A stretch of 55,844 nucleotides of DNA from a virus, in the IMG/VR virus record IMGVR_UViG_3300043446_000624, positions 1 through 55,844 of that record, one strand, 5' to 3'. This document shows positions 1,095-53,949 of this stretch, piece after piece; within the stretch, counting starts at the first letter, position 1, and each line of letters begins with the position of its first letter. Made by a program: the position numbers and the translations under genes. The notes below the pieces were generated by a model. It did not search any database and was not told the origin of the DNA. It saw only the letters and a program-made list of their open reading frames with translations.

Positions 1095-1095
1095 G

Positions 1096-3501: not shown

Positions 3502-3640
3502 CGATTTTGCAGAGGCTTCCGTGAAGAAGATGTTGCTTAAAAAATGAGCATTGTTAAATTTGCGGTGTGCGAAAGATGCACCGCGCGGCAAACCTTGCCG
3601 ACGAGATTAACTTCGTTTGGCCTGACCATCTCGAAAAATC

Positions 3641-3883: not shown

Positions 3884-3969
3884 TTTCACCGACCCCTGAA
3901 TCACTAAATAGCGAGCTTGCGCCCAGAGCACGCGCGAGGACTCATAACTGGTCTCAAACCCCGCTAGGG

Positions 3970-4014
3970 GCAAAAAGAAACCCCGCCCGACATCTTGCGA
4001 CATCGGGCGGGGTT
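3970..4014 (-). terminator. Rho-independent terminator after the 206-aa gene
   Basis: On the minus strand a 12-bp GC-rich stem (arms 3979-3990 and 4003-4014, AACCCCGCCCGA pairing with its complement) encloses a 12-nt loop and is followed by TCTTTTTG. It starts 10 bp beyond the stop codon at 4024. Confidence 0.85.
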
Positions 4015-4023
4015 AGTGATCAC

Positions 4024-4644: not shown

Positions 4645-4704
4645 AGTATCTCCGATAAGCAAAGGGACGACAACCCGCCGCAACCGAATTGTCACGGCAT
4701 CGTG

Positions 4705-4722
4705 TCGTCTGATTAAGTTATA
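4705..4722 (-). promoter_or_regulatory. Promoter-like 18-mer, copy 1
   Basis: The plus-strand 18-mer TCGTCTGATTAAGTTATA matches the element at 5612-5629 at 16 of 18 positions. On the minus strand it reads TATAAC, then about 6 nt, then ATCAGACGA. TATAAC is a good -10, so transcripts could start in or just before ATCAGACGA. It lies 60-80 bp upstream of the 206-aa gene. No -35 hexamer is conserved between the copies, so a phage-specific or activator-dependent promoter is possible. Confidence 0.5.
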
Positions 4723-4856
4723 CATGATCGGCCATGGAATTGCGCGTTTCACCGGGGCGTGAACCACTATCTCGCTCGCTTGGCCCACTCGCTCACTCGC
4801 GTGGCTGGACTCGCGCCTACGCGCGCGGCGACAAATAACTGGTATCAATGGCCAAA

Positions 4857-4880
4857 TAAAAAGGGGACCGAAGTCCCCTT
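4857..4880 (-). terminator. Terminator with UUCG tetraloop
   Basis: In minus-strand sense the stem AAGGGGAC / GTCCCCTT closes a TTCG loop and is followed by TTTATTT, directly downstream of the stop at 4884. The core is identical to the terminator after the major capsid gene. Confidence 0.8.
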
Positions 4881-4883
4881 TTG

Positions 4884-5054
4884 TCAGTCCAACAGCTCCA
4901 AGAGCTTGTTGTACTCAGTGGTCATTTGCTCATCGCTCCACGTATCGACTATGCTGTAGTCGGGACGCATTCCAAACACGTCTTTATGCAGATCGCTGTA
5001 GCTTGCCCACATTTTTTCCATCGGGCTCATATCTTCCCAAGCTTTGAATTTCAT
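4884..5054 (-). CDS. Small hypothetical protein, 56 aa
   Basis: The ATG at 5054 is preceded by AGGAG with a 6-nt spacer and the frame ends at TCA (4884-4886), just before a terminator. The product begins MKFKAWEDMSPMEKMWASYS and continues to VFGMRPDYSIVDTWSDEQM before an acidic, leucine-rich end. It looks like a small helical protein of a type often seen in phage early regions. I do not know a function. It is transcribed with the 153-aa gene upstream, separated by a stable hairpin. Confidence 0.75.
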   Translation of the reverse strand: MKFKAWEDMSPMEKMWASYSDLHKDVFGMRPDYSIVDTWSDEQMTTEYNKLLELLD

Positions 5055-5069
5055 GGTGTTCTCCTAGAT

Positions 5070-5087
5070 GGGGGGCCAAAGCCCCCC
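5070..5087 (-). other. Intercistronic hairpin
   Basis: GGGGGGC and GCCCCCC arms pair around a 4-nt CAAA loop between the 153-aa and 56-aa genes. No T-tract follows on the minus strand, so this is more likely an RNA-stabilising or processing hairpin, or a weak attenuator, than a full terminator. Confidence 0.6.
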
Positions 5088-5093
5088 GGTTAA

Positions 5094-5555
5094 TCAATCA
5101 CACTGGATCGCGTACTTGGGAGTCGTCACTGTTTCAGTGCCGATCACAATTTTGCGACACGTTGGACTATCGTCCTTCACGTATGCACTCAGCAACACCC
5201 TGTAACCGTCCACGATGTACGTGAAGTCACGGTTCAGGCACGATGCGTATTCTTTTTGCTCATCAAGAGTGCCGATTTCTTCGAGCAACCATAGGACTGA
5301 TTCGAGTCGCAGGGACTTAAACCCGTCCAGATGGTACAGATTGATGCTAAACACGGGCTCGTCACCACTCATCCACATGTGCAGAGAGTTGCTACGCGAG
5401 TTGGTGTCGACACACATAGACAACGTGCGAAGCAAGCGGCCGATGGCTTTGCGCTGAGTGGTAAGGACTGCCACGCTGTTACGGGCGCGCACTACGCGGT
5501 CTTTGGCCTCACGCAAAGCGTTTGCGTAGAGTTGGGTTGCAATGGACTTTGCCAT
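5094..5555 (-). CDS. Hypothetical protein, 153 aa
   Basis: The ATG at 5555 has AGGAG with a 6-nt spacer. The N-terminal 45 residues are basic and helical (SIATQLYANALREAKDRVVR). They are followed by a beta-rich segment with tryptophans and tyrosines (HMWMSGDEPVFSINLYHLDG) and a C-terminal strand-rich region (FTYIVDGYRVLLSAYVKD). No membrane segment or catalytic set is visible and I do not recognise the family. It is the first gene of a two-gene unit and its upstream region carries the second copy of the promoter-like 18-mer. Confidence 0.7.
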   Translation of the reverse strand: MAKSIATQLYANALREAKDRVVRARNSVAVLTTQRKAIGRLLRTLSMCVDTNSRSNSLHMWMSGDEPVFSINLYHLDGFKSLRLESVLWLLEEIGTLDEQKEYASCLNRDFTYIVDGYRVLLSAYVKDDSPTCRKIVIGTETVTTPKYAIQCD

Positions 5556-26715: not shown

Positions 26716-28602
26716 ATGCCTCTGAAAAAACTGTCCCTGAAAGCAGGCGTAAACCGGGAAAACACCCGGTACACCAACGAAAACGGCTGGTACGAGTCCG
26801 ACAAGGTGCGGTTTCGTCAAGGCACGCCTGAGAAAATCGGTGGTTGGGTACGTATTTCAGCTAATACTTTTCTTGGCGTCTGCCGGTCGCTTTGGAACTG
26901 GGTCACGTTGGGCGGCGCAAACTTGCTTGGCGTTGGAACAAACATAAAGTTCTACATCGAGCAGGGCGGGCAGTACTACGATGTTACACCCCTGCGGGAG
27001 ACGGCTGTTCTTTCCAACCCGTTCACAGCTTCGTCAGGCTCCCCCACTATTACAGTAAACGACGTAAACCACGGGTGTAATGCCGGAGATTACGTTACTT
27101 TTAGCGGCGCTGTTGGCCTTGGCGGCAACATGACTGCCACGGTTTTGAACGCAGAATTTCTAGTGGCAACCGTTGTTGATGCGGATAACTACACCATCAC
27201 CGCTGGGGTTAACGCCACCCCCTCAGACACTGGACATGGCGGCGCAACGGTTACAGCAGAGTATCAAATCCACGTTGGCCTTGCCTATGCTGCGCCAATT
27301 ACAGGGTGGGGCGCTGGGCCTTGGGGCAGCGGGCCTTGGGGAATTGGTTCCACAAGCGACGTGAGTCTCCGCCTGTGGACGCAAAGCAACTTTGGTCAGA
27401 ACCTTGTGTTTGGGTATCGCGGCGGTCCTATGTATTATTGGGACGCGGACACTGGGGTAAGCACGCGCGCGGTTGAGATCAGCACGTTGCCGGGCGCAAC
27501 TGACGTACCAATCGTTCAGAATACCACTTTGGTATCTGATGCTTACCGGTTTGTGTTTGCGTTTGGCTGCAATGATTATGGTTCCACAACCCAAAACCCG
27601 ATGCTTTTGCGTTGGTCGGACCAAGAATCTGTAACCGATTGGACACCCGCTGCTACCAACCAAGCGGGCAGCTTGCTGCTATCTCGGGGTTCTGAGATTG
27701 TTACCGCTATCCAAACTCGTCAGGAAATTGTGGTGTTCACGGACGCTGCGCTGTATTCGTTCCAATACCTTGGCCCCCCAACGGTGTGGGGTTCCCAGTT
27801 GCTGGGTGACAACATTTCAATTGCCAGCCAGAACGCCGCAGCGTTGGCTTCTGGCGTGATCTACTGGATGGGTACGGATAAGTTCTATAAATACGATGGT
27901 CGCGTGCAGACGTTGGTCTGCGATCTGCGTCAGTTTGTCTATGGTGATATTAACCTTGAGCAACAGGATCAGTTCTTTGCCAGCACAAACGAAGGCTTCA
28001 ACGAAGTCTGGTTCTTCTATTGCAGCGCGGCTTCAGACACGATCGATCGCTACGTGGTTTACAACTACATCGAGAACGAAGGCAAGGGTTGTTGGTATTA
28101 CGGCAACATGGCGCGTAGCGCATGGCTGGACTCCGCGCTGCGCGATCACCCAATCGCAGCAACGCTGATCAATAACATTGTCTACCATGAAGATGGCGTG
28201 GATGACAACGCAACGGCCACGCCAACCGCTATTGAAGCAATGATCAGTTCCGCTGAATTTGACATCGATGACGGCGACAAGTTTGGGTTTGTCTGGCGTA
28301 TAGTGCCTGACATTACGTTCCGTGGGTCTACTATAGATAATCCGCAGGCTACCTTGACACTGATCCCAATGCAAAACTCGGGTTCAGGGTTTAACAACCC
28401 AACTTCGGTAGCGGGCAGTGACAACGCAACTATTACCCGAACTGCGGAAGTCCCGATTGAACAATTCACCGGTCAGGTGTATATTCGCGTGCGTGGTCGC
28501 CAGATGATTCTTCAGCTGGAATCCAACCAACTCGGGTGTACGTGGCAGCTTGGTTCGCCCCGGATTGACATTCGTCAGGATGGACGCAGAGGCAATACAT
28601 GA
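26716..28602 (+). CDS. Tail nozzle/hub-like protein, 628 aa
   Basis: Beta-rich, beginning MPLKKLSLKAGVNRENTRYT, then WYESDKVRFRQGTPEKIGGW. A domain at about 97-190 (TITVNDVNHGCNAGDYVTFS) is an immunoglobulin-like insert. The core has repeated segments such as NLVFGYRGGPMYYWD and IYWMGTDKFYKYDGRVQTLV, suggesting beta-propeller blades as in T7 gp12 or P22 gp10. The C-terminus has VYIRVRGRQMILQLESNQLG. Best fit is the nozzle/hub that extends the adaptor. The distance from the adaptor gene is large but lysis genes intervene. The next gene overlaps by ATGA. Confidence 0.72.
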   Translation: MPLKKLSLKAGVNRENTRYTNENGWYESDKVRFRQGTPEKIGGWVRISANTFLGVCRSLWNWVTLGGANLLGVGTNIKFYIEQGGQYYDVTPLRETAVLSNPFTASSGSPTITVNDVNHGCNAGDYVTFSGAVGLGGNMTATVLNAEFLVATVVDADNYTITAGVNATPSDTGHGGATVTAEYQIHVGLAYAAPITGWGAGPWGSGPWGIGSTSDVSLRLWTQSNFGQNLVFGYRGGPMYYWDADTGVSTRAVEISTLPGATDVPIVQNTTLVSDAYRFVFAFGCNDYGSTTQNPMLLRWSDQESVTDWTPAATNQAGSLLLSRGSEIVTAIQTRQEIVVFTDAALYSFQYLGPPTVWGSQLLGDNISIASQNAAALASGVIYWMGTDKFYKYDGRVQTLVCDLRQFVYGDINLEQQDQFFASTNEGFNEVWFFYCSAASDTIDRYVVYNYIENEGKGCWYYGNMARSAWLDSALRDHPIAATLINNIVYHEDGVDDNATATPTAIEAMISSAEFDIDDGDKFGFVWRIVPDITFRGSTIDNPQATLTLIPMQNSGSGFNNPTSVAGSDNATITRTAEVPIEQFTGQVYIRVRGRQMILQLESNQLGCTWQLGSPRIDIRQDGRRGNT

Positions 28603-29987
28603 CGCTTATTGTCACCACGGATAATGAACTCCAACGGATTGCGCCGCCTAACCTGCCTCTTGCGCCGGGTGACTACAGCTCGCAGTATCAGGAACAGTTC
28701 AACAACGTTCTGCGCCTGTACTTCAACCGCCTACAAAACATCTTGGGGCAGCTCATGGCTACTACCTCCACACTGCCGATTTCTTTCCCGCCCACGGCCC
28801 TAGATGCGTTTGGTCGTCAGCGGGTTAGCCAGCCGTATACCCTGTTTGACAGCCAAAGTCGTTACGCTGCTGACAATCAATTTAGTTCGTCTACCACCGG
28901 CACAGGCTCGACCACGTTCAATACAAACCAATCCAGCGTCAGTTTAAACGTGACTGCTGGAGGTGTGGGTTCTGTAGTCCGTCAAACGTACCGTTCATTT
29001 CCGTACCAGCCCGGCAAGGGGTTGCTGGTACTTGCCACGTTCCAGATGGACGCCAGCGAAAGCGCCAACCTTAGTCAAAAAATTGGGTACTTCAACACCC
29101 AAAACGGGGTATTTTTCTCCAAAACTGATGGAACTAATGCTTTTACCCTACGTTCTTACACGAGCGGTGTAGTAAACGACTCCAGAACAGTAAACCAAGC
29201 TGATTGGAACGGTGACCCTCTAAACGGAACAGGAGCCAGCGGTCTTACGCTAGACCTGACCCACCCACAGATTTTGTGGATGGACTTTGAGTGGCTGGGT
29301 GTCGGTTCTGTGCGTTGCGGGTTCATCATCAATGGTGAATACATTGTTTGCCACACGTTTAACACCGCCAACACCTACGGGACCACGGTGTACATGACCA
29401 CGGCTATCCTGCCAGTGCGGTATGAAATTACATCGACGTCAGCGGTGGCCGCAACTCTGACCCAGATTTGCTGTTCTGTCGTATCAGAAGGCGGGTTTGA
29501 GCAAACATCAGTTGACCATGTGGCGCGACGCACCACAGTCTTTAACACTATCAACACAGCAGCCACGTTCTATCCCATCGTGTCAATCCGTCTGGCTTCT
29601 GGCCGTACGGGCGCGGTGGTGCTGCCTAACAGGGTTCAGTTTCTTCCGACGACAAGCCAGAACTACGAGGTGGCGTTGCTTAAGAACCCAACTTTGACTG
29701 GCGCAACTTGGGCGGCTACTGTACCATCTGACAGCAATGTGGAATATGATGTTGCGGCCACGGCCATTAGTAACGTTGGGACTATTGTCCAGACAGACTA
29801 CGTTACTTCCTCCGGTAGTGCAGGAGTTAGCCAAACAAGCGCACCGACCGGATATAACTGGGACTTGCAATTGGGTGTATCCTTGGCCGGGGTGAGCGAC
29901 ATTTACACGCTGGGGGTGCGTACCGTTTCCGGTGCAACCACAGGGGATGGTCTTGGCTCCATTTCGTTCTACGACCTGACGCAGTAA
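28599..29987 (+). CDS. Tail structural protein, 462 aa
   Basis: The N-terminal helix region (YQEQFNNVLRLYFNRLQNIL) is a recurring phage motif that probably docks to the tail hub. The rest is a large beta-rich domain with SRYAADNQFSSST, FPYQPGKGLLVLATFQMDAS, FFSKTDGTNAFTLRSYTSG and ILWMDFEWLGVGSVRCGFII. These segments resemble the lectin-like or jelly-roll domains found in phage tail proteins. It may be a tail spike, tip or distal tail component. No glycosidase active site is evident. It starts inside the stop of the nozzle-like gene. Confidence 0.68.
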   Translation: MTLIVTTDNELQRIAPPNLPLAPGDYSSQYQEQFNNVLRLYFNRLQNILGQLMATTSTLPISFPPTALDAFGRQRVSQPYTLFDSQSRYAADNQFSSSTTGTGSTTFNTNQSSVSLNVTAGGVGSVVRQTYRSFPYQPGKGLLVLATFQMDASESANLSQKIGYFNTQNGVFFSKTDGTNAFTLRSYTSGVVNDSRTVNQADWNGDPLNGTGASGLTLDLTHPQILWMDFEWLGVGSVRCGFIINGEYIVCHTFNTANTYGTTVYMTTAILPVRYEITSTSAVAATLTQICCSVVSEGGFEQTSVDHVARRTTVFNTINTAATFYPIVSIRLASGRTGAVVLPNRVQFLPTTSQNYEVALLKNPTLTGATWAATVPSDSNVEYDVAATAISNVGTIVQTDYVTSSGSAGVSQTSAPTGYNWDLQLGVSLAGVSDIYTLGVRTVSGATTGDGLGSISFYDLTQ

Positions 29988-29996: not shown

Positions 29997-30290
29997 ATGA
30001 CGGCAGCGATTGATTTTATCGAGCTTTTTAACGGCGTGATCAAGCTGGCAAAACCAGTTACCGCTGAGCATAGCTACGCCAAGTCTTTGGACGATAAGAT
30101 TGATGACTTAGACATAGACAGTCTGGATACGATCATGATGTCCATGTACCTTGGCGAAGTCTATGGGATTGATGAAGACACGATGCGCGAAATGGACGTC
30201 GAGACGCTTGCACAACTACAAGAGTTCCTAGAGGCCAAGAAGACCCATACACCAACCAACGTTGAAGAAGAGTTGGCGAGGGTCAAATGA
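29997..30290 (+). CDS. Acyl carrier protein-like
   Basis: The 97-residue protein contains the canonical carrier motif LDIDSLDTIMM with the putative phosphopantetheine attachment serine at S42. An acidic helical bundle pattern follows (YLGEVYGIDEDTMREMDVET then LAQLQEFLEAKK). The length and net acidity match ACPs, with an extra charged tail. It should be converted to holo form by a host phosphopantetheinyl transferase. The next gene, a ketoacyl synthase, starts within its stop (ATGA), so the two are co-translated and probably act together. Confidence 0.87.
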   Translation: MTAAIDFIELFNGVIKLAKPVTAEHSYAKSLDDKIDDLDIDSLDTIMMSMYLGEVYGIDEDTMREMDVETLAQLQEFLEAKKTHTPTNVEEELARVK

Positions 30291-31393
30291 TTTATCTAAC
30301 CCACCACCGAGGTGCTGGCACAAGCCAGACGGAGGTCATTGAGGACAATCCGTATCCCCAGCGGATACATTGGTTCCCCGAGACATACCAAAACGTTAAG
30401 TCAGGTCTTGTTTACCCGGCCCACGTTCTTGCCAACAAAGTCATTGACCCCGCGTTGATCGAGTACGTCCAGAACAATCCCACACCCGGAAAAACTGGAT
30501 TTATTCTTGCTGCTGGATCGCAAGGTTGGGCGGGCATTAGGGGACGTCATGACAACAAAGAAGAAGGACGACTGCACTACAAGTTGAAACTTCCTTTGGT
30601 GACGTTGACCAACATATATGCTGGGCGAGTTGCGTCAATGTTTGGACCTATGGACTATGTTTCCACGGACGCCAGCGCATGTGCCTCTAGCATTAAGGTT
30701 CTGATGGAGGTCCACAACCTGATGACCAATTTTGGTTTTACCAGAATGATCGTGCTTGGGGTGGAAGACGCTGTTAACAACTCAACGCTTGAGTTCTTTG
30801 GCCAAGCCAAGGCCAGCCTGTTGCTCAAAGATGAGCCCAACATCAAGCCATCCGCGTTTGACTCTGTGAACGCAGGGTTCAACATCGGTCAGGGCGCAGG
30901 TTTAGCTATTTTTGAAACTGAACCAGCCACTACACCCGCAGCAAAACTGCTTGGTACCTATACCGCTGCTGAAAACTTCACCAATCCGTTGGGTCAACGT
31001 CCCGACGGCCAAGGGTACATGAGGTCAATAGAGGGCGCTTTACACATGGCCAAGTTGCCTGCATCGGCTGTGCGTATTGTCAAAACACACGGTACTGGGA
31101 CGCCGACTAATAACACTGCGGAGAAGGCCGCGATCACGACAATGTTCAGTGATTTTGTGGCGACTTCATATAAACAGCGTTTGGGGCACACACTTGCTGC
31201 AAGCGGCTTGATGGAAACCAGCATGCTGCTCAGTGATCTGCAACGTGGGGTTATTCCCGGAATTCCAAACAGGACAGAAGATGATGCCGTTTTCTTGTCT
31301 ACCGATGCGCCTGCGCGAGGGGGCGTGATTGCTGTTTTAGCCGCAGGGATGGGGAATGTTTTCTCAACCGCGTTACTGACAACGGAGTTGTGA
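30287..31393 (+). CDS. Beta-ketoacyl-ACP synthase-like enzyme
   Basis: The 368-residue protein carries all catalytic signatures of thiolase-fold ketoacyl synthases. The nucleophile is C132 in STDASACASS. FDSVNAGFNIGQGAG (191-205) equals the FD..rdGFv.GeGaG segment. H268 lies in KTHGTGTPTNNTAE. K296 and H301 lie in YKQRLGHTLAASG. The Cys-His-His triad and Lys are therefore intact. It is shorter than FabF (about 410). The reaction expected is decarboxylative condensation of acyl and malonyl-ACP, or acyl transfer. Its partner is the upstream ACP. Such an enzyme in a virion operon is unusual. Confidence 0.87.
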   Translation: MIYLTHHRGAGTSQTEVIEDNPYPQRIHWFPETYQNVKSGLVYPAHVLANKVIDPALIEYVQNNPTPGKTGFILAAGSQGWAGIRGRHDNKEEGRLHYKLKLPLVTLTNIYAGRVASMFGPMDYVSTDASACASSIKVLMEVHNLMTNFGFTRMIVLGVEDAVNNSTLEFFGQAKASLLLKDEPNIKPSAFDSVNAGFNIGQGAGLAIFETEPATTPAAKLLGTYTAAENFTNPLGQRPDGQGYMRSIEGALHMAKLPASAVRIVKTHGTGTPTNNTAEKAAITTMFSDFVATSYKQRLGHTLAASGLMETSMLLSDLQRGVIPGIPNRTEDDAVFLSTDAPARGGVIAVLAAGMGNVFSTALLTTEL

Positions 31394-31394
31394 A

Positions 31395-31838
31395 ATGAAA
31401 ACAGTAGACAGCAAAAAACAAAAATTGAATATAGCTGATATTGTTATGCATGACTCAGAAACGTCTAAGTCTGATGTACCCATGCAGCAGCTTATACCTG
31501 CACTTATCCAAGAATTAAATAACCCAAATTGCGCCAGCAGGCAAATAGGTAATTCATTGTTTATTCTTCACAAAGGTGAAGACGGAAAAGGATTTTTTAG
31601 AGGGCTTAACGCAGACACTGCAGAAAACTATATTGACAATATCCGTGAATTTCTTATTTGGGCAAAAGAAGATTTAGGCATGACGTTTTTAATGACTCAG
31701 TTCAAGGGCCAAGAAATCGCACGGATCACAAAATATTTTAAAAAGCATCCGCCTATCCCCGGAATGCAGCATGTAATGTTTAACATGTCAAACGGCGAAA
31801 CCCGACTTGTTTTGCTTTTAGAGCCGATGAAAGACTGA
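31395..31838 (+). CDS. Hypothetical protein, possibly GNAT-like acyltransferase
   Basis: The 147-residue protein starts 1 bp after the ketoacyl synthase. The N-terminal 60 residues are helical and polar (QQLIPALIQELNNPNCASRQ). The C-terminal part has a strand-strand-helix-strand-helix-strand order: NSLFILHKG, KGFFRGLNADT, ENYIDNIREFLIWAKEDLG, MTFLMTQF, GQEIARITKYFKKHP, MQHVMFNMSNGETRLVLLL. That topology would suit a minimal GNAT acyltransferase fold, but no acyl-CoA loop (Q/RxxGxG/A) is visible, so this is weak inference. I recall a similar FRxLNADTAxN(Y/F) motif in phage hypotheticals. The DNA from here on is noticeably more AT-rich. Confidence 0.65.
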   Translation: MKTVDSKKQKLNIADIVMHDSETSKSDVPMQQLIPALIQELNNPNCASRQIGNSLFILHKGEDGKGFFRGLNADTAENYIDNIREFLIWAKEDLGMTFLMTQFKGQEIARITKYFKKHPPIPGMQHVMFNMSNGETRLVLLLEPMKD

Positions 31839-31839: not shown

Positions 31840-34800
31840 ATGGGAAAAAGCGTAACAGATTTTACCGGCGGTCTTTACGACGACATTGCAGACACTGCGC
31901 AAGATATACGCAGTGATGTTATCAACACTGTTCAGGACACAGCTGCTAAGGTCTATGATAATGTCGTATCGCCTGTTGCTGCAACTGCGGTAAACACGAT
32001 TAAAGCCGCCGCGAAGGATCCCATCGGTACGATGGTTACTGTCGCAGTAGCATACGCTGCGCCGCAATATTTGCCGCTGGTTAACGCGGGCAGAACTTTA
32101 GCCAACGGCGGGACGCCGCAAGACGCGTTAAAAAACGCAGCAATTTCGTACGCTGCAACAAATATAGGTAATTACGTTGGAGACCAAGTCACTCCGATTG
32201 AATCGCAAACACTTCAGCAACTAGGCCCACAGTACGAAAACCTTGCGCTGGTAAAACAAGTTGTGTCCGCATCTACAGGCGCGGCTGCGGCGTCTATATT
32301 GCGCGGAGAGCCTGTAAAATTAGTTTTGACCAATGCAGTAACTGGAGCCGTTAACAGCGCGGTAAGTAGCCAGCTTGCAAAAGACTATGGTTTAGCGTCA
32401 GGGTCGTTCGCCAACCAATTAGCGTCTAATTCTATTTCTGCAGCTACTAAAGCGTTGCTGCAGGGTAAACCATTGATGGAAGCGGTAGTTCAGACCGCAA
32501 CAGCCACAGCCATCACGGCGGGTATTACTACGGGCGTAGAAAATCTTAAGGCGTTGTCAAATAAGTCTGTTTCTCTTTCGCAGGAATTTAGTGCTAAAAC
32601 AGGCGTATACAATTCAACTTTAGAAACTGCTAAAAGTCAAATTGCTAATGCTGACAGCTGGGTGACAATGGGTGTCAACACAGCAAATATGTACGCAACC
32701 GATAATGGTAAATATATTGAGGAATATAAAACAGACTACGCCAGATATACAGCGTTAATTGATAAAGTAAATTCCGGTGATTATTCCGGACGGGATAGCG
32801 ATATTGCAACTATCCATACCTTAGAGTCTCAGTTAGGTGTAAAAGCTGACCAAATTGAGTATACTAAACAACAATTTAACGATTGGTCACAAAAAGTTAA
32901 CGATTATGTAGTTCGTCGAACTGAAATTGAAAATACATATCTACCACAACTTTCGACTATGCGCAGCGAATTGGATACGCTGGCAAAAGATTATTTAAGC
33001 GCACAGGATAGTATTAAATCGGTTTCTGAGGATATTGGAACCCAGGTCAAACATTACGAAGATTTTGTCAGTACGGAATCCGCCAAATATGCGGATGAAA
33101 TTGCTGCTGAGGCGGTTAAACAAGCCCAAAGTACGCTTGAAACAAACGCCAAGAGCGTGGGGGCTGATAGTTACGCCACACTTAAACCGTATGTTGATAC
33201 AAAAGTACAAGAGATTGAGGATGTTAAACAGCAGCTTCAGGACCACATGGCTGCTGGCGACTATATTAGCGCGTGGGCAGATAAAAACAAACTAAATGAA
33301 CTTGGAACTAACCTTAATAGTATTGAACGTAAGTTTGATGATTTGGGAGTTGATCTTGGTAATGACGCTAAGGCTGCGGACACTCTTAACTATTCGATGG
33401 ATATCCAAAAAGATATCCTGCCCGGGTTGCAACAGCAACAGCTTCATAATCAGGCCGAGCGCATATATGCACCCCTCGTAGAAGTTGACCTAAAGAACGC
33501 CGCAGACGCGCAACAAAAATTTCAGGACGCAATGGCGTCAGGGGATTACCAAGCTGCAAAACAGGCCTTGTCTGTTATACAGCAATCAACAAAAAATCTA
33601 GACGTCTACGAACAGCAGTACCCAACCGCAAAATTAAGTTACGACGACAAACAAGCGCCGTTCCAAGATTTTTTAGACACTATCGACGTCAAGGCAATTG
33701 ACAAAGGGATTGCGGTACAACGGGCGCAGCCTTGGCTTGATCAATTAACGGCCCGAGCGCAAGCCGCGCAGAACCAGCTTGAACAAGCGCTGGAAAATAA
33801 TGACTTCTATGCTGCCGCATCCGCGCGTAGACAGTTAAACTCCTATATAGACCAAATAAAAAATGTAGACACCAATTATGGGCTTGATAAATACAATATA
33901 AGCACGGACGAGCAAGCGGATCCTTTTAAAAATATGTCGGGTAGTTTCACGGACCAACAAATTGGTAACACTGCCGCCGCGTATGACACTCTAAAGAACC
34001 AAGCCCGGAATGAATTAATACGGCAAGGCTACACTGAATACTACGGAAAAACCCTTCAGCCAAACGCCAGCGCTGAAATAGCGTCGGTTGCCGAGAATTA
34101 TGAAAAACAAATTCAAGACGCAATGGCGTCTGGAGATTATGCTGCTGCGCAAAAAGCCGCTGACGCTTTAAAAAAATGGACAGGTAAACTACAAACCTAT
34201 GAGGGAGTTAGCTTCCAGCAAGATAATCAGGCGGAAGAATATCAAAAATTCCTAGATACAATTGCGCCAGATATTGAAAAAGGGGTTTTAGAACAAACAG
34301 CGGAAAAAGCTACGCCGACTACGCCGACTACGCCTACGCCGCCGACTACGCCGACTACGCCTACGACGCCGACTGAACCTGCGCCTACGACGCCGACTAC
34401 GCCAACGCCAACGCCTGAAGCTACGGACGATGGCACAACTGGCGATATTCAAGACATTATTGACGTAATAAACCCACCGACGCCTGCGCCGACTACACCG
34501 ACTACGCCAACGACGCCAACTACGCCGACTACGCCGACTACACCGACTACGCCAACGACGCCAACTACGCCGACTACGCCAACTGAACCTGAGTGGGTCA
34601 AAGAATATCGAGCAACGCTTAATAACATATATAAACCCGTGCTTGACGCACGTGTGAGGGAAGCGGAAACGTCTAAAGCTAGGCTTGAACAAGCTCTTGC
34701 GGCTGGAGATCCCGCTGAGATTGAGCGCTTTAGCAAGAATCTTCAATCAGATATTGATGCGATTAAAAATGTAGACAACATGTATCGCGTCCAAGATTTT

Positions 34801-35811
34801 AATCTTGGGTGGGACGACAGAGCGACTACGTTTGAAGACTTCTTAGAAACTATTAAGTCGCCCACACCTACGCCGACTACACCAACGACGCCGGACGATA
34901 TGACGCCGGACGATACGACGCCAACTACACCGACGACGCCGACTGAACCTGCGCCAGTCGAGCCAGAACCTGTGCCGACTACACCGACTGAACCTGTGCC
35001 AGTCGAGCCAGAACCTGTGCCGACTACACCGACGACGCCGGACGATACGACGCCGGACGATACGACACCGGACGATACATCCACAGACAATGGTGGATTT
35101 ACAGGGCCGACTGGCCCAATGACTGCTGATCAGATTCAGCGGTACAACGACGAGTTCTCCCGTTATCTGGACTCTTTGACGTCTGGAAGCACGATTCCGC
35201 CCGACTACGATGTCCAAGACCTAGGGATTACCCCAGAAAACTGGGAATCGTTTGACCAAAACCTTCAGCAGATGCTGGAGGAAGGAAAGTTGCCGACTCA
35301 GTGGAAGCCTGGAGACAACGGAGCTTTTACGTATACGGACGATGACGGTAGCACGATTACGATCGATGCAGAAGGCAATATTGTGGGTTACACCGAAGCC
35401 CCCATAGGCAATCTGCCTGGAGAAACTCCGCCTGAAGAAACAACTCCTACGCCAACAATCCCGACTACGCCGGTAACTCCTAAGCCGCCGACAACGCCGA
35501 CTACCCCGACTACCCCGACGACGCCGGTAACTCCTAAGCCGCCGACGACACCGACTACCCCGACTACCCCGACGACGCCGACTACCCCCGCTGGGCCGTT
35601 GGATTTACAGTCACTTTTGGCACTTTTGGGCGCGGTGGGCGGCGGAGACCAAAGTCAGGCCCCGGCGCCCCAAGTTGTGGATATTGGTCAGCAACTGGAC
35701 CTTAGCGCCCCCCTGGAAACAAACCCGTTTGCAAGACAGCAAACTCAATCTAAAATGGCAACTGGCGGGTCTATCGACGATCTGCTGGCAATGCTTCAGC
35801 AGAGAGGTTAA
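31840..35811 (+). CDS. Internal virion/ejection protein with Thr-Pro linkers, 1323 aa
   Basis: The N-terminal 230 residues are Ala-rich and amphipathic (AYAAPQYLPLVNAGRTLANG) and suit membrane insertion. Helical coiled coils follow to about 820. Five related helical repeats of the type (M/L)A(S/A)GDYxAAxxAL occur near residues 468, 564, 650, 760 and 952. Four Thr-Pro blocks (TTPTTP) lie near 824-860, 879-915, 1007-1080 and 1199-1250. A globular segment (1085-1195) and an end MATGGSIDDLLAMLQQRG complete it. Position before two more large helical proteins suggests an ejected protein. The Thr-Pro blocks are probably flexible. Confidence 0.72.
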   Translation: MGKSVTDFTGGLYDDIADTAQDIRSDVINTVQDTAAKVYDNVVSPVAATAVNTIKAAAKDPIGTMVTVAVAYAAPQYLPLVNAGRTLANGGTPQDALKNAAISYAATNIGNYVGDQVTPIESQTLQQLGPQYENLALVKQVVSASTGAAAASILRGEPVKLVLTNAVTGAVNSAVSSQLAKDYGLASGSFANQLASNSISAATKALLQGKPLMEAVVQTATATAITAGITTGVENLKALSNKSVSLSQEFSAKTGVYNSTLETAKSQIANADSWVTMGVNTANMYATDNGKYIEEYKTDYARYTALIDKVNSGDYSGRDSDIATIHTLESQLGVKADQIEYTKQQFNDWSQKVNDYVVRRTEIENTYLPQLSTMRSELDTLAKDYLSAQDSIKSVSEDIGTQVKHYEDFVSTESAKYADEIAAEAVKQAQSTLETNAKSVGADSYATLKPYVDTKVQEIEDVKQQLQDHMAAGDYISAWADKNKLNELGTNLNSIERKFDDLGVDLGNDAKAADTLNYSMDIQKDILPGLQQQQLHNQAERIYAPLVEVDLKNAADAQQKFQDAMASGDYQAAKQALSVIQQSTKNLDVYEQQYPTAKLSYDDKQAPFQDFLDTIDVKAIDKGIAVQRAQPWLDQLTARAQAAQNQLEQALENNDFYAAASARRQLNSYIDQIKNVDTNYGLDKYNISTDEQADPFKNMSGSFTDQQIGNTAAAYDTLKNQARNELIRQGYTEYYGKTLQPNASAEIASVAENYEKQIQDAMASGDYAAAQKAADALKKWTGKLQTYEGVSFQQDNQAEEYQKFLDTIAPDIEKGVLEQTAEKATPTTPTTPTPPTTPTTPTTPTEPAPTTPTTPTPTPEATDDGTTGDIQDIIDVINPPTPAPTTPTTPTTPTTPTTPTTPTTPTTPTTPTTPTEPEWVKEYRATLNNIYKPVLDARVREAETSKARLEQALAAGDPAEIERFSKNLQSDIDAIKNVDNMYRVQDFNLGWDDRATTFEDFLETIKSPTPTPTTPTTPDDMTPDDTTPTTPTTPTEPAPVEPEPVPTTPTEPVPVEPEPVPTTPTTPDDTTPDDTTPDDTSTDNGGFTGPTGPMTADQIQRYNDEFSRYLDSLTSGSTIPPDYDVQDLGITPENWESFDQNLQQMLEEGKLPTQWKPGDNGAFTYTDDDGSTITIDAEGNIVGYTEAPIGNLPGETPPEETTPTPTIPTTPVTPKPPTTPTTPTTPTTPVTPKPPTTPTTPTTPTTPTTPAGPLDLQSLLALLGAVGGGDQSQAPAPQVVDIGQQLDLSAPLETNPFARQQTQSKMATGGSIDDLLAMLQQRG
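34312..34590 (+). repeat. Low-complexity ACGCCGACT repeats coding Thr-Pro
   Basis: Runs of acgccgact units encode TTP/TPT repeats in two blocks (about 34312-34419 and 34474-34586). Adenine/cytosine third bases vary, so the repeats have been maintained at protein level. They are prone to length variation or assembly error. Confidence 0.85.
35470..35577 (+). repeat. 54-bp direct repeat, two units
   Basis: A 54-bp unit starting CCGGTAACTCCTAAGCCG occurs at 35470 and again at 35524, nearly identical, coding PVTPKPPTTPTTPTTPTT twice. A recent in-frame duplication within the Thr-Pro-rich C-terminal linker of the 1323-aa protein. Confidence 0.85.
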
Positions 35812-39885: not shown

Positions 39886-42800
39886 ATGCCTAAGTTTGAA
39901 GTCGAGCTGCCTTCTGGCAAGTACGAGGTTGATGCCCCAAACGAAAGAAAGGCGTGGGAGTATGCGAACTATTACGCCAAGGCCGACTCAAAGCCTGCTC
40001 CCGTAGCTCAGCCTGCTCCCCCTCCCGCCGCGCCGCCACTGCCGGAACGGTCGTGGGGTGAGGCCGCTAAAGACGTCGGCGCAAGCGCCATATCAGGTAT
40101 TGGTTCACTTGTACAACTTCCTGGGCAACTGTACGGTCTAGCTACCGGCAACTTCAACAAGACTGGCGCGTTGGGTCTTGGCGAAGACATTCAAAAGTTT
40201 GGCGAAGAAATGAAGTCTCCGGGCCTGAAAGCCCGTGAAACTGCGCGTGACGTCGCCGTGCAGAACGCTGAAAAAGAAGGTCAGTGGGAAGCATTCAAGA
40301 CCGCCGTTGGGCAGACTGTTTCTGATCCCGCCCTGCTATTCTCTTTCCTATCCGAACAAGCCCCGCAGATGATCCCAGCGGTCATTACTGGCGGCGGCAC
40401 AGCCGCGCTTGCGGCGTCCAACGTCATGGCAAAAGCTGCCGCACGGGGGATTTCCAAGGAAGCCGCAGAAAAGGTTGCGCAAAAAGCCGCAATCAAGGCT
40501 GGTACGACGGCTGGTGTCCAGACGGGTGCAGTACAGCAGGGTGCAGACATTGGCGCTGGCGCGTACGACATGATCTACAAGGAGCTGACGAATCAGGGCA
40601 TGTCTCCTGAACAAGCGGCTTCTGAAACACTCAACCGTGCGCGTGCCGCTGGTGTGTCTGGCTATGCCCTGTCTTTGATAGCGCAGAAGCTGCCCGGTGG
40701 TCAAGCTATGGAACGCATTCTGGCTGGCGAGCGCATGGCTGGTCGCGGTATCCTTCCCCGCCTTGGAACTGGTCTCGCAACCGGGGCCAAAGAGATTCCC
40801 AGCGAGATGCTGGAAGAGACTGGCGGACGGTTCACCCAAAACTTGGCGCTACGCGATGTCAAACCTGACCAAAGCCTGACTGAAGGCTTGGGACAGACCG
40901 CCGCTATGGCCGCACTTGGCGGCGCTGGCATGGGTGGAGTGACGGGCGCATTGGGACGCCGTGCGGCTCCTCCTGTACCTCCCACCACTACAGAAGAAGA
41001 GAAACCGGAAACCCCAACAACGGACGCCACGGCTCCAGTAACCCCACCTTCAACGCCGCCCGCTGCGCCGCGCGTGGTCCCGGATAAATTTGAAGAAATT
41101 ACGGATCAGGAAGCTCAAGACTTAGCCAAGCAAGAAGTTAAGACTACGGCTCCCACTGGCAGTTTGGCTGAACTTAAACAGCAAATTAATGAGCTAGAGA
41201 CTAAGGTCAACAATCGTAAGATTGAAATTGCCAACATGGTTGCGGCAGGGGAACAGCCACGCCCCAAGAATAAGCTATCTAACTACATCAATGCTAATAA
41301 ACGAGACGAAGCAGACCTTGAAGCTAAGCGCGGAGCGCTTGCCAAGAGGGTTGAAGCAGGAGAAACAGATGTTGTCGAACCTAAGTCAGAAGCAGGTGGA
41401 ACAGGCGCTGAAGTACTTACACGACCCGGTACTGACGACACCGCCGCCGCAGGAGCTGGAACACTTAAACCAAGCGGAGTGGTTTCTCCTGGACAAGATG
41501 CTACAACAACTGCTAAAGGAACGGGACAGCCAGCCGCTCCAGTAACGGAAACCAAGCCTGTCGAAGAAACAAAACCCGTTGCCCCCGTAGCAGAAGCCTC
41601 GCCCGCCGCACCTGTTGCACCCGCGCGTGACGAACTATATGACCAAGTCACCAAAGGTTTGGCGGACAACACGATGCGCCCCAGCGTATCTAGCCTGAAG
41701 AAGACGCTAAAGATTGGGGATGCGCGAGCCAACAAGATTCTGGATGAACTTGAGAAAAACAATGTTGTAACCGCCAAAGATGCCAAAGGTCTGCGTTCAG
41801 TCGTGGGGCAGGAAAAACCTGCGCCTGCTGTCGCACCCGCTAAGCCCGTCGCGCCCGCCAAAGAATTGACGATGGCCGACTTCATGAGCGAAGAAGAATT
41901 AAACGACGTCTTCTCCGAGTTTGAAGATAAAGGCGACAAGCCCTTGGCGTCGCGCGGCCCGCTCAAGGCAGAGGCAGTTACTGATCCCAAGTTGCAACAG
42001 TTGTACAAAGCTGCGCAGCAAGTCGGTATTAGTCCTGTTCCGGGCGAAACGCCTCAGCAGTTGGTTGCCCGTGTGCGCCGTGAGCAGAAGTTCCGTCAGG
42101 AAAACGAAGTCGAGAAAGTGATGACTGAAGGCCCGCTCAAGGGCACAAAGTACACCCAGTTGACTACGCCGCCTTCCGCTGTCCCATTGCAAGAACTTGC
42201 AGGTCAAGGCATTCAGCCCACCAAAAAGCAAGGGCGCGCCCGAAGCGTAATCCCTCAGAACAAGCGCGAACTCTACGAAGAGATGGCGGAAGAGTTCAAT
42301 GCGCAATTGGAAGCTGACATTGCAAAACAGGGCGGCGAAAAAGAAGAGGAAGTCGAAGCGGCCCCCAAAAAGGGTGAAGTTGAAGAAGTCAAAGCAAGCA
42401 CAACGCGTGACTCAGACGAAAAATTGCCCGACTTTGACAGACTGACTGACGACGAAGTTGAAGAATACTTTGATCGCATTAAAGATAATACGTGGGCTGA
42501 GCACACTGACGCCGCACAAGAACTGTCAACGTATATTGCGGGCAAAAGAAAAAACCTAGGTTTTGCTGGGCGTCGCGCAGTTGCCGGAGCTAAAAAGCGT
42601 GGTGTTACTGACGAAGCGCAATTGGAAGCCGCTCGTGAACGCGCAAAAGAACGTGAAGCCGCAGAGCAAAAAGCCGCTCGTGAATACAACCGCCAACGCG
42701 GTCCCATGTCTGACAAGACGGGGTTGGCATATACGTTCCCGCTCTGGGGTGATCTGTCTCCCGAAGCACAAGACCTGTACATTGCCACAATTGGCGACAA

Positions 42801-45800
42801 CAGCGCCATAAATCAGTACGAGACGTTTGGGTTGCTAAAACGTCAGATCCAAGCTGAGCTGCTTGCCAAGAGCAAGAGCGAAGGGTCCCTTGCTGCAATT
42901 AACGAACAGATTCGCATTGCTTTGCAGGAAGAAGATCGTAAGCGCAAACGTGATAGCCGCGCAAAAAGTGGGCGCCTGCCAAAAAATATTCAGGACAAGA
43001 TGTTCTCTGGCGACCTTCAGGGGTTGCTTGACTATTTCAGGGACGGCGCGCAATCTTTTGCGGAACAGATTGGAAAGCCTTTCCAATGGATGACCGGCAC
43101 TGGGATTAGTTTGCCGCGTACAGCACGCGAAGGTATTTACAAGGCTGTCTACCAGAATCTGGCCACTGAGTTAGCGTCTTTGCCCGACTTTAAGGTCAAT
43201 ATTGTGTTTGACCCAAACCTCAACAAGTCTGAGGTGGCGGTATATAACTACAAAACCAACACTATTTATGTCGGGCCAAATGGGTTAACCCAAGGCGCAA
43301 TCTTGCACGAGCTGACACACGCAGCAACAGTCAAGATCATTCATGCGTACTACACCCATTTACATGAACACATCGTTAAAGAAGATATAACGCCTCGCGC
43401 TCGCCGCGCATGTAACCAACTGCTGAACATCATGCTTTTGGCTGAGCCTAAACTGAAGTCTAAAGAAGACGGCAGATACGCTCGCGCGTTTGACAACTTG
43501 TATGAGTTCGTTGCGTACGCAATGACCGATCCCGATTTCCAGCGTGAATTGGCCCAGATGCAGTCGCCAAGCATTGCTAGAGCCACAGACCGTGATGTCA
43601 ATCTTGAAAAAGCTGGCAGAACCGGTGATAAATCTGTAGGCGATAACTTGTGGGGATACTTTGTCAATACGTTGGCGCATCTGTATCGTCTGTTCCGTCC
43701 ATTGTTAGAAAACAAAAAGTACGCTGCTCCAGTTGACCGTCAAATGAAGGTCAAGTCTGGAAGATACCAAAACGTTAAGACAACCATAACTAAATACGAC
43801 CGGGACGAAGGATTCCACGGGTACAAATACGAAGACTCTAAGGAAGAAGCGCGTCGCAAGTACGACGCCTTTATGAACAAGCTTCGTGAACTGCGTAAAC
43901 CACAAGCGGAGCGTGAAGCAAAAGCGGAAGAAGTCACGGAAGAAACCACCGAAGACGACCGCATACTAGAAAAAGCAACCGAAGAAAAGAAGCTTGAGCT
44001 TACCCCCGAGTTGGAAGCGCGGATTGCGGCGTTTGAACTTGAAAAGCAACGTTTGCTAGAAGAAGACAAACAGGCTTACGACGAAAACATTTCCCAGCTG
44101 TTCAATGACATTGAAGCGGAAACCGAGCTTGCCGACATTGAAACAGAAAAACAACAAACCAAAAAAGAAAAAAGAAAAGACGACAAAAAGTTCCAGAAAG
44201 AGCTTATTGATCTGCCTGAACACGGCATCAAGAACCTTGAAGTCCTGACTCTAAGCGAGCCGGGATACCGTGGTAACTTCCTGTTGGAAGCAGCTGCTGC
44301 GTTTGAAGGTATTCTGGCTGTCCCAAATCCTGAAGGTATGCCTGAGCTTGCCGGACTCGACCGTGCCGACATTGATAGAAGCCCTCTTCTCGCTATGACC
44401 GCGCCGCAGACCAAGCAAGCTGAGAAAAAGCAAGAGGATGTGTCGTTTGACCAAGCGGTGGAAAAACAAAAAGAGCGCCTGCCCAAGAAGCCCGGCATCG
44501 GTGCGGTACGCAAACTGTTCACAACTTCGGCTGGGCGTCGGCAGTTGGCTACGGCATGGCAAAACGACCGCTATGCGATCAAGTTCTGGGAAGACTCACT
44601 TGAGCGTGCTGGCAAGATTTTCTATGCTGGCAAAGACAAGATGAACAACATCTACACCCAGATTGCTTTGTCTGCGGCGCGTGCCAAAGACATCTATCTG
44701 ACCAAGGTGGAAACTCCCGCAGCTGAACTGCGCAGCGCTATCGGCAAATTTGCTGAGGGTATGAACCTGTCTGTAGAGGACGCGCTGAGCCATTTGCAGG
44801 TATACGCTATTGGGTTGCACGAGCCTGAGCGCCGCGAAGCTAAGTTCCTGTTGAACGTGCCATTGAACGATAAAGTCAAGATCAAGTTTGACGGCAAGGC
44901 AATGACTCCCGCCGATGTGCGGCAGTACATCCTAGATGAGTTCATCTTAAACGGCACTGCTAACAAACAAGAAGCCGCGCAACTGAAAAAAGTTATGCGT
45001 TCGCTGGTGGATAAGTACAAAGACCCCGCTGGTTCTAGTCCTAGCGGTGAAAAGTCCATCGATGAATTTAGCGCAAACTACAACGTGATTGGTACGTACT
45101 CCCCCGCGTCGATCAAAGCTATCCAAGATCGGTACAAGAAGAACGAAAAGTTGCTCAAGCCCGTTTTTGATGCAATGCAGAAACTGCAAACCGTCACGGC
45201 TGAAATGAACCGCGATGCCAACTATTGGTCTAAGCCGGTCGAATCATTGGTGAACTTCTACGGATGGAATCACTACGTGCCGTTCAAGGGTAAAGCGGAA
45301 GCCGCGACTGGCAAGCTGGACTATCTGTTGGACTTTGATAGCGAACGCCTAGGCAAAGAACTGCAAGACGCGCCGCATTCGTTTGAAGGTCGTGTTAGTG
45401 AATCTGACAACTCCATCGTCCAGACAATGACTGACGCTACGCGTGCCGCAATGCGCGCTGGGCGGGCTGACCTGACGCTTGCAATCAAAAATGCTTTGGA
45501 CCAAAAACTTCTACGTGGTGCGCCGGTCAAAACTATTCCGTTCAAGGATCGCTACAACGCTGGCATTGACGAAGAAAAGAAACGCGCCACGATCTTCCAT
45601 TACAACGAAGACGGTAGTGTGGATGTTCTGTATATTCAAGATCGTTCGCAACTGGAAGCTATCCGTCGCACGTACCAGCAGTCCAATCCGATGATTGATA
45701 TGCTTAACGGCTTCACCAGCAAGATCGGACAAGTTCACACTCGGTACAACTTTGCTTTTGCTCCGATGAACTATTTCCGCGATATGTTGACCAACGCGTT

Positions 45801-51790: not shown

Positions 51791-52210
51791 TTAAACCTCA
51801 ACTGAAAGATTACTAGATGCGCGGGGCTTGTACACGGTGATCGCGTATTCCCGCATGACATTCACACCGGGGGGCAAACCTTCACCAGCCCTGTCGGTCA
51901 TGAATTGCTTGAAGTTGGTCTGATGGATTCGACGTTCAAGAAGATCAATGCTTCCCTCGGTCTCGACAAACTTCTTGAAGTTGTCCCAATCAGAACAAGT
52001 GTACCGGTCCTTGACTTGACGCGATACAGTACCGTGAGCAGTCTTGAGACCACTCGTGTTCGTTGTGTTGCAGATGTCTAAAAGTGCGGCTTCAATTTTC
52101 TCCAAGTCTTCCTTCAACTCTCTGTCGGCTGAATCAAAATCGGCCTTGAGTGTCTCACGTTTCCGACGAATTGTTAAATAGGTTTCCACTAACTGATCAG
52201 CATTGTTCAT
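51791..52210 (-). CDS. Hypothetical coiled-coil protein, replication operon
   Basis: The 139-residue protein starts at the ATG at 52210, 14 bp inside the SNF2 gene. The N-terminal 45 residues form a charged helix (LTIRRKRETLKADFDSADRE then LKEDLEKIEAALLD), followed by TSGLKTAHGTVSRQVKDRYT, a beta pair, and a C-terminal GLPPGVNVMREYAITVYKPR. This order is a recurring phage replication-operon family resembling Gam-like nuclease inhibitors in outline. Similarity is by pattern only. Role in protecting DNA ends or recombination is inferred. Confidence 0.68.
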   Translation of the reverse strand: MNNADQLVETYLTIRRKRETLKADFDSADRELKEDLEKIEAALLDICNTTNTSGLKTAHGTVSRQVKDRYTCSDWDNFKKFVETEGSIDLLERRIHQTNFKQFMTDRAGEGLPPGVNVMREYAITVYKPRASSNLSVEV

Positions 52211-53771
52211 TGCTTTCTCCTTCGATTTCCTGACGATACAGGTCCACCAACTGTTCGTGCATATCGACCTTGTTTTGCAACATGCGATACATACGGCGCT
52301 CCACCTCGGACCCTTGGAGGTGGATTACAGTCATACTGTTCTTCTGTCCCACGCGGTCAATCCGCGCAATACACTGTAAGTAAGTCTCTACAGACATGAC
52401 GGGTGACCAGAACACCACCGTGTCAGCGGCAGTCAATGTCACACCATGCGATGCGGCTTGCGGTTGAATGAGTAATACCTTTGGGTCATCCTGCGTTTGG
52501 AAACGATTAAAAATTGCCGCACGTTCATTGGCTGATACGCTTCCTGCAATGATCTCGCTGGAGATGTTGCTCTTGTTCAGGAAGTTCTTGATCAAGCTAA
52601 GCGTGTGGGTGTACGGCACAAAGACGATGACTTTGTGGGAAGACTCTTCCAACACTTCGTGCAACACGTTCAACCGTGGCGATACATCGAACTCGACCAC
52701 ATTGCCTCCGTCGGTGTACACCGCCCCACCCGATAGCTGGAGCAGTTTGGTCAGCGCGGCGGCGGCATTGACGGTACTAATGGTTTCCCCTACTGCCATG
52801 ATCTGCATTTGCTTGACCAATTCCTTGTAGTAGCCCGTTGCCTGTGCAGTCAGCGGCACTTCGCGTGACTGATACGTCACCTCTGGTAAGTCAAGACACT
52901 GCGACTTCTCGTAGCGGATTGCGGGTTGCAATGCGTTGAACACTAGCGACTTGGCGTAAGGTTTGGGAACCCAACGAAAACGGGAAACCTGCGTCATGAC
53001 AGTATCTTTCCACGCTGTCTTGTACTTGGGCACACGTGACGGATTTATCAGCCGAGCAAGCCCGAACGCATCTTCAGGTGACTGCGACGCGGGTGTACCC
53101 GTCATCATCCACAGATAGGTGCTCGGTTGAATGATGCTTGCTAGAGTCTTCCAGCGCACAGTACTCGTGTTCTTGTATGCGTTGGCTTCGTCAACGATGA
53201 TCAGATCAAATCCAGCGTTGGCAATTGCTTCGCGCTCAGACGATACACCGTCATAGTTGATGATGACAAACTGATACTCGCCTTCGATGACTTTGCGGCG
53301 TTTGCTACCATGAGCAATACCGCAGGTGCGGTGCATTGCTGTTTTGAACAGATCGCCTTGCCATGCTGACTTCATGATTGACAACGGACAGATCACCAAC
53401 ACTCGCTTAATCTTGCCTTCACGCATCAGATAGTCTGCGGCCCAGATAGCGGCAGATGTCTTGCCTGTACCAGCTTCGTTAAAACAGAACGCACGTTTGT
53501 GCAGGGTTAGGAAACGTGATGTGTCGCGCTGATGCTCGAACGGCTGGAACATTCCAGGCCAGTTGTAATGCTTCTCGATGGGTGACGGAAGTTTGCTGTC
53601 TTCGAGCAGTACGGTGAGCGATTGCATTTCATCAACGCCCCAGTACACCATCATTTCCGAGTGCGAGCCTTGCGCTCCAAGCACCTCGCTCTTGTCGATG
53701 GACGCCTTGATTGTCTGCGCCACATCATGTGAGCAATGGAATTGCACTGCAATGTCTTCAACTATATTCAT
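52197..53771 (-). CDS. SNF2-type superfamily 2 helicase/ATPase
   Basis: The 524-residue protein has all SF2 motifs: Walker A NEAGTGKT near residues 98-105, VLVICPLSIMKSAW (Ia), VDEANAY at 192-198 in place of DEAH, MMTGTPASQ (III), LLIQPQAASHGVTLTAADTV (V) and QCIARIDRVGQKNSM (VI). The RxDRxGQ ending and DEAN motif II are typical of the SNF2 branch. Likely a dsDNA translocase for replication, recombination or packaging-related remodelling. The ATG at 53771 has GAGG with 4-nt spacing and lies at the end of a long leader. Confidence 0.87.
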   Translation of the reverse strand: MNIVEDIAVQFHCSHDVAQTIKASIDKSEVLGAQGSHSEMMVYWGVDEMQSLTVLLEDSKLPSPIEKHYNWPGMFQPFEHQRDTSRFLTLHKRAFCFNEAGTGKTSAAIWAADYLMREGKIKRVLVICPLSIMKSAWQGDLFKTAMHRTCGIAHGSKRRKVIEGEYQFVIINYDGVSSEREAIANAGFDLIIVDEANAYKNTSTVRWKTLASIIQPSTYLWMMTGTPASQSPEDAFGLARLINPSRVPKYKTAWKDTVMTQVSRFRWVPKPYAKSLVFNALQPAIRYEKSQCLDLPEVTYQSREVPLTAQATGYYKELVKQMQIMAVGETISTVNAAAALTKLLQLSGGAVYTDGGNVVEFDVSPRLNVLHEVLEESSHKVIVFVPYTHTLSLIKNFLNKSNISSEIIAGSVSANERAAIFNRFQTQDDPKVLLIQPQAASHGVTLTAADTVVFWSPVMSVETYLQCIARIDRVGQKNSMTVIHLQGSEVERRMYRMLQNKVDMHEQLVDLYRQEIEGESNEQC

Positions 53772-53949
53772 ACTACCTCTTGACTGTTTGTTTGTTTGTC
53801 CCCGTCTTTCCGGGGTGTCCGTCAGTCCTGCAAAGAACAAAGTCTAGGAGAAAGCAACCCTGCCAACTGACTGATGCGGTTTAGGGAACCAGATAAAAAC
53901 CCTGTTTGACGCCTAGCGTCTGGCCCACTCACACCTTACTGCCAACACA
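53772..53949 (-). promoter_or_regulatory. Leader upstream of SNF2 gene with hairpins
   Basis: A roughly 170-nt untranslated stretch between a sigma-70-like promoter and the SNF2 start. Two small hairpins are visible: 53908-53920 (GACGC/GCGTC, 3-nt loop, followed by AAACAGGGTTTTTATC on the minus strand) and 53800-53815 (CCCCG/CGGGG, 6-nt loop). This could be an attenuator; no riboswitch class is recognised. Confidence 0.45.

Follow-up and report, generated by a model that had tools for sequence, protein, structure and literature searches.

A linked acyl carrier protein and ketoacyl synthase of uncultured aquatic phages: a candidate virus-specific acyl-condensing module

Why would a virus of bacteria carry, amid the genes for its virion, an acyl carrier protein (ACP) and a beta-ketoacyl-ACP synthase (KAS)? 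The question is raised by IMG/VR record IMGVR_UViG_3300043446_000624, of which the whole stretch (positions 1-55,844, hereafter the window) was studied. Here a gene for an ACP of 97 amino acids (29997..30290, plus strand) overlaps by ATGA (30287..30290, plus strand) a gene for a KASII/FabF-like synthase of 368 amino acids (30287..31393, plus strand), and a third gene, for a GNAT-fold protein of 147 amino acids (31395..31838, plus strand), starts 1 bp after the second. A first-pass annotation, made from the sequence without database searches, had described these three open reading frames (ORFs), their overlap and their 1-bp gap, a DSLD motif with its serine at position 42 of the ACP, and residues C132, H268, K296 and H301 of the synthase, and each of these is found where it was described. 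It went on to propose that the three genes form a cassette with a role in particle assembly or entry or, alternatively, that they reprogram host lipid synthesis.

The second gene encodes a member of the ketoacyl synthase superfamily, as judged by its Pfam scores, its thiolase fold and its catalytic residues (Cys-His-His plus Lys). It scores 62.9 bits against PF02801 and 38.1 bits against PF00109, both above the cut-off of 20.8, and it matches phrog_35856, a PHROG of unknown function, at 2e-32. An AlphaFold2 model made with 42 relatives in the alignment has a predicted local distance difference test score (pLDDT) of 89.9, and its top Foldseek matches are FabF enzymes (E-values to 2e-21, template modeling scores of about 0.8 and at most 0.81), which are also matched at the sequence level. 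The thiolase fold proposed at first pass is thus borne out. Of the four active-site residues, C132 (codon at 30680-30682, plus strand) is invariant in about 205 synthases, and H268 (31088-31090), K296 (31172-31174) and H301 (31187-31189), on the same strand, are likewise invariant save for one gap. Three pairs of synthases give ratios of nonsynonymous to synonymous substitution (dN/dS) of 0.085, 0.062 and 0.031; synonymous sites are saturated between the window's KAS and that of locus L001. By these ratios, the family is under strong purifying selection.

The first gene is an acyl carrier protein by the evidence of its sequence family, weak when taken singly and clear as a profile. Alone, the window's protein scores 15.4 bits against PF00550, under the Pfam cut-off of 20.8, and matches phrog_5934 ("acyl carrier protein") with E=0.006. 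When a profile of 12 family members is compared with PDB, the 60 best of 104 matches are all ACPs (best E=5e-5), those of mitochondrial complex I included. The predicted 4'-phosphopantetheine site is Ser42 (codon at 30120-30122, plus strand), within the motif D41-S42-L43-D44, and both D41 and S42 are kept in 203 of 203 homologues. The protein is acidic, with 22 Asp and Glu against 9 Lys and Arg, and dN/dS in two pairs is 0.22 and 0.02.

Relatives of the synthase were sought in IMG/VR by alignment-led scans, two of which confirmed at least 511 and at least 536 stretches, some of the weaker matches among which could be other ketosynthases. The L028 and L013 synthases, used alone as queries, brought in few extra loci. 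Environmental viral contigs by the hundred carry the pair, and the viruses that they represent are uncultured phages of aquatic habitats. An ORF with the motif DS[LF]D lies directly upstream of the synthase in 100 of 102 loci. Practically every KAS locus that can be tested has the ACP in this place, and the co-occurrence that the first-pass annotation had made a test of its proposal is found. The spacing is also kept: the 4-nt ATGA overlap is present in 89 of the 100 relatives, and 10 loci have instead a gap of 5 nt. Such an overlap presumably couples the translation of ACP and KAS. Taken together, the invariance of the residues and the linkage of the two genes are far beyond chance. A correlation of evolutionary distances does not single out the pair, since the value for ACP and KAS (0.55) hardly differs from that for KAS and the GNAT gene (0.54).

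The synthase appears essentially confined to viruses, at the sensitivity of the pattern-led search by which this was judged. The same type of search that found relatives in IMG/VR found this KAS in one of 84,980 bacterial and archaeal species, and among those species no bacterial genome was found with this clade in a housekeeping fab locus. The lone match lies on a contig of a Balneolaceae metagenome-assembled genome (MAG) that also bears the GNAT gene and phage-like genes, and the MAG has a separate FabF of its own elsewhere. In a tree with four bacterial ketosynthases, the viral members all stand apart from them with support of 100 (this being a quick tree with few outgroups, for which long branches call for caution).

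Where the pair lies differs from virus to virus. The surroundings of 200 distinct synthases were read, and although the proportions are biased by an upper limit of 80 loci in the sampling and by the choice of query, three arrangements can be told apart. In the first (159 synthases, the window's included), the pair is part of a virion operon with the order structural protein, tail protein, ACP, KAS, GNAT gene and giant proteins. In the second (36), an SNF2 helicase gene is directly upstream of the pair, and in the vicinity are genes for primase, a DUF2800/PD-(D/E)XK nuclease, ribonucleotide reductase and DNA polymerase. The third accounts for four synthases, and one locus is incomplete. One record (G065) has the pair beside the helicase, and its virion operon runs from structural protein to GNAT gene with neither ACP nor KAS in between. 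At least two switches to or from the SNF2 context are required by the KAS tree. By these observations, ACP and KAS travel as one unit, active site intact, between unrelated sites of viral genomes. The first-pass annotation took position in the virion operon as a sign of a role in assembly or entry, a conclusion that the 36 helicase-linked synthases and G065 undercut.

The SNF2 lineage includes four whole records with a gene for a holo-ACP synthase (AcpS) a few kb upstream. The phage enzyme scores 57.9 bits against PF01648 (cut-off 25) and 85 bits against TIGR00516 (cut-off 59.8; L016:1398-1769). A search of 34 records for AcpS found it in these four viruses and the bacterial MAG only, and in none of the virion-operon records covered, the window included, so host AcpS would have to serve there. 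The phage AcpS is the best evidence, albeit indirect, that the phage ACP would work in the holo form.

The third arrangement brings other partners. In L197, a gene for a diiron protein is followed by ACP and then KAS, in L028 the diiron protein lies between the two, and in L199 and L217 the place between them is taken by a small membrane protein (L199:7600-8001, L217:1179-1637), in the latter case a DUF2269 protein above cut-off. The two diiron proteins (L197:6793-7617; L028:353-1198) carry, as read by eye, motifs of the types EExRHG and DExRH, similar to those of AurF or acyl-ACP desaturases. That of L197 matches AurF (5e-5), FA_desaturase_2 (1e-4) and Rubrerythrin (above cut-off), matches that place it in the ferritin-like diiron class; those of L028 are weaker. 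A cupin gene lies downstream in L197, and within its replication region one virus of the helicase context has an ORF that looks, by eye, Rubrerythrin-like (L230:10280-10717).

Is the third gene of the window part of the same system? Its AlphaFold2 model (pLDDT 92.5) matches GNATs in PDB by Foldseek and, in BFVD, an "Internal virion protein A" of a podovirus (E=3.3e-5). T7 gp13 and P22 gp14 occupy the same position before the ejection genes, and the window's gene resembles this type of internal virion protein in both fold and place. The GNAT gene is also present in viruses without ACP and KAS. In a sample ranked by similarity to the window's GNAT gene, 160 loci had enough upstream sequence, and there the gene is preceded by ACP and KAS in 126, by ACP only in 3 and by neither in 31; in 23 of the records without the pair, the available sequence holds no ketoacyl synthase at all. 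The three with ACP only (L174, L177 and L179) have the same type of operon, with ACP directly before the GNAT gene and no ketosynthase. The conserved residues of the GNAT protein are identical with and without ACP and KAS, and its tree needs 12 gains or losses of the two genes, of which well-supported branches make 6 unavoidable. For these reasons the gene is best seen as a resident of the operon and probably not as a third component, and the proposed three-gene cassette, like an HlyC-like pathway through the 147-amino-acid protein, is weakened. Within the GNAT family, G52-N53 and D74 are invariant and N78 nearly so.

What, then, might the pair do? We tentatively prefer, with a little less than even confidence, to see it as a portable, virus-specific enzyme module for acyl condensation that acts in the infected cell by way of host type II fatty-acid synthesis. 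We infer the following course. The apo-ACP would be converted to the holo form at Ser42 by host AcpS or, in part of the lineage with the pair among replication genes, by phage AcpS. Host FabD, or acyl transfer, would load malonyl or acyl groups on the phage ACP. The synthase would then take the acyl chain on C132 and condense it with malonyl-ACP with the help of H268, H301 and K296. Finally, host type II fatty-acid enzymes might complete the cycle, or the beta-ketoacyl product might be used as such, or the acyl group might be transferred. A FabG-type reductase (adh_short_C2) and a FabA/Z dehydratase were looked for in 24 virus records, several of them only fragments, and neither was found, so the cycle must borrow host enzymes or else the product differs. 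The most likely outcome would be a change in the supply or type of acyl chains, and thus, while the infection lasts, in the membrane or the lipid flux of the host. Membership of the virion operon governs the timing; it is no evidence that the particle contains the proteins. Of the two ideas offered at first pass, the alternative, host lipid metabolism, fits better than a virion role.

Several observations weigh against an acyl-condensing module of this kind. Its link to fatty acids rests on homology. The gate loop of FabF is GFGG, with a gating Phe, and in its place the viral synthase has G354-M355-G356-N357, GMGN being present in nearly all members of the family. The viral protein is also shorter on the N-terminal side (368 versus 413 amino acids), and by reason of both differences its substrate or reaction may differ from that of FabF. 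The diiron proteins score under the FA_desaturase_2 (PF03405) cut-off of 22.7 bits (21.7 for L197, 17.3 for L028). Furthermore, the closest isolates by terminase, namely Phage DSL-LC04, 023Pt_psg01, Pelagibacter phages HTVC023P and HTVC027P, and Planktothrix phage Pag-Yong1, have no ACP, KAS or GNAT gene in the 50 kb or less of each that was read, so phages of this general type can do without the pair.

Some of the same facts could be read differently. Perhaps the pair makes a specialised product, an unusual acyl group or a beta-ketoacyl one, released as a small molecule or handed on to a protein or other target instead of going back to membrane lipids; in phages with the pair in the virion operon, perhaps the GNAT-fold neighbour uses acyl-ACP to acylate an ejection protein. 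We consider a specialised product unlikely, though the constancy of the GMGN loop would suit it, as would the lack of reductase and dehydratase in the virus records, and the synthase has, as one of its weaker family scores, 76 bits against AmcF, an acyltransferase subunit, which is under the cut-off for that family. For the variant through the GNAT protein, one can point to its gene directly following the pair in virion operons and to the three loci where it follows ACP with no KAS. Against that variant, however, stand the 31 loci where the GNAT gene has neither partner and yet the same conserved residues, the helicase context, where the pair does not adjoin it, and the protein itself, which is without the usual P-loop for acetyl-CoA (Q/R-x-x-G-x-G/A) and has near there, by eye in the family alignment, D74-T75-x-x-N78. 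Going further, the ACP, the KAS clade and, in some viruses, AcpS and a diiron oxidase or desaturase might amount to a private pathway of acyl condensation, whose product lies beyond those of the host (for example a virus-specific lipid, a signal or the acylation of a protein), a proposal that we regard as doubtful.

It would also be conceivable for the pair to act as a brake or drain on host fatty-acid synthesis, sparing acetyl-CoA and ATP, whether by decarboxylation of malonyl-ACP or by a phage ACP that competes for phosphopantetheine and for the host's enzymes. A lone KAS and ACP without other enzymes of the pathway fits a drain or decoy, and a place among replication genes would suit one. 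A decarboxylase, however, could tolerate loss of the nucleophile, as KSQ domains do, and here every catalytic residue is invariant, C132 among them; a decoy, for its part, would need neither a KAS nor an AcpS of its own. A brake is for these reasons decidedly unlikely. A structural or chaperone-like role of ACP, KAS or both in the particle or the ejection apparatus strikes us as improbable: about 80% of the sampled distinct synthases (a query-biased sample) do lie between a tail gene and the GNAT or ejection genes, but in the helicase context no virion genes adjoin the pair, in G065 it is apart from the virion operon, and a scaffold needs no invariant enzyme active site. A role specific to the virion is weakened accordingly. 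Last, the genes might be bacterial contamination, the result of a misplaced prophage boundary, or recent captures from a host. In favour of this, a fabG-acpP-fabF set in host fab order has been reported from prophages (PMC8224337), and several "phage" database records with a KAS resemble host sequence. For the present pair such an origin is hardly credible, given the single match among the cellular species, itself on a phage-like contig with the GNAT gene, the separation of viral from tested bacterial synthases in the tree, and the fixed viral neighbours around the pair.

How does the pair compare with known systems? With FabF/KASII the synthase shares the fold, the Cys-His-Lys-His set and the Pfam ketoacyl synthase domains. 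It differs in being only about 20% identical in the structural match, in scoring 107.9 bits against the FabF equivalog TIGR03150, well under the cut-off of 493.75, in its loop and length, and in its fixed pairing with an ACP of its own. Single ACPs, of unclear or no more than presumed function, have been described as auxiliary genes in isolated marine phages: R22Y of Alteromonas (PMC11705849), R16F of Vibrio (PMC10152775) and vB_EliS-R6L of Erythrobacter (PMC5463345). The texts of these three reports, however, do not contain the word "ketoacyl" and name no ketosynthase. Three Rhodobacteraceae prophages that carry fabG-acpP-fabF (PMC8224337) are similar in that an ACP and a FabF-type synthase occur together within a prophage call, but there the order is that of the host, with fabG, whereas the pair described here comes without a reductase and its KAS belongs to a separate viral clade; we read the prophage genes as being of host type, possibly from a prophage boundary. 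Viral enzymes proposed to alter host membrane lipids include fatty acid desaturases of Arctic viruses that match stearoyl-CoA desaturase (PMC7300359) and the phage-encoded desaturases for which PMC11480375 cites Roitman et al. 2018 (ISME J). Here, by contrast, the enzyme is a condensing one with its ACP, and only L197 and L028 add a possibly desaturase-like diiron protein.

A full-text literature search (with few subscription journals and no preprints) found no description of a virus-specific pair of ACP and ketosynthase, in agreement with the first-pass annotation, which was aware of no such phage system. Single phage ACPs are already known; no account of a dedicated ACP-KAS module peculiar to viruses came to light. 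The lone annotated genome with the pair, MW202545, was derived from a metagenome of Manatee Spring. There (MW202545.1, our L030) the annotated start of the KAS lies 156 bp downstream of the one that relatives conserve, the shortened protein being labelled 3-oxoacyl-ACP synthase, and the ACP is left as a "hypothetical protein", so that the public entry conceals the pair.

Carbon-carbon bonds in fatty acid and polyketide synthesis are formed by a ketosynthase with its ACP. A KAS essentially confined to viruses, always paired with an ACP, kept by purifying selection and spread over hundreds of contigs makes acyl-chain chemistry appear to be a repeated need of aquatic phages. Lone phage ACPs, up to now an oddity of annotation, may in this way lead to a two-protein system that can be tested, with a catalytic mutant as control, and the relatives that bear AcpS offer a self-contained set for expression.

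The first-pass annotation placed the pair between tail and ejection proteins. The upstream side of this is supported by virion PHROGs: a structural protein of 628 amino acids (26716..28602, plus strand; phrog_3287, 8.5e-57), whose cluster "stab" is found in 87 loci and includes the "phage stabilization protein" of MW202545, and, directly before the ACP gene, a tail or virion structural protein of 462 amino acids (28599..29987, plus strand; phrog_1645, 2.6e-98). On the downstream side is a giant, repeat-rich protein of 1323 amino acids (31840..35811, plus strand; cluster "inj", which follows the GNAT gene in 65 loci), presumed from synteny to be an ejection protein; the giant downstream proteins have no informative family match in Pfam or PHROG. 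The window has an SNF2-family helicase gene too (547 amino acids; 52197..53840, minus strand; PF00176, 72.7 bits), and it is directly downstream of a helicase gene like this one that ACP and KAS lie in other viruses. A protein of 2546 amino acids (39886-47526) matches LPD38 and an FtsK gamma domain (40.6 bits, cut-off 30.6), the latter match being unusual if, as presumed, this is a polyvalent protein that is ejected. Positions 1-5300 hold few long ORFs (the longest, at 4024-4848 on the minus strand, has 274 amino acids), unlike the tightly packed remainder.
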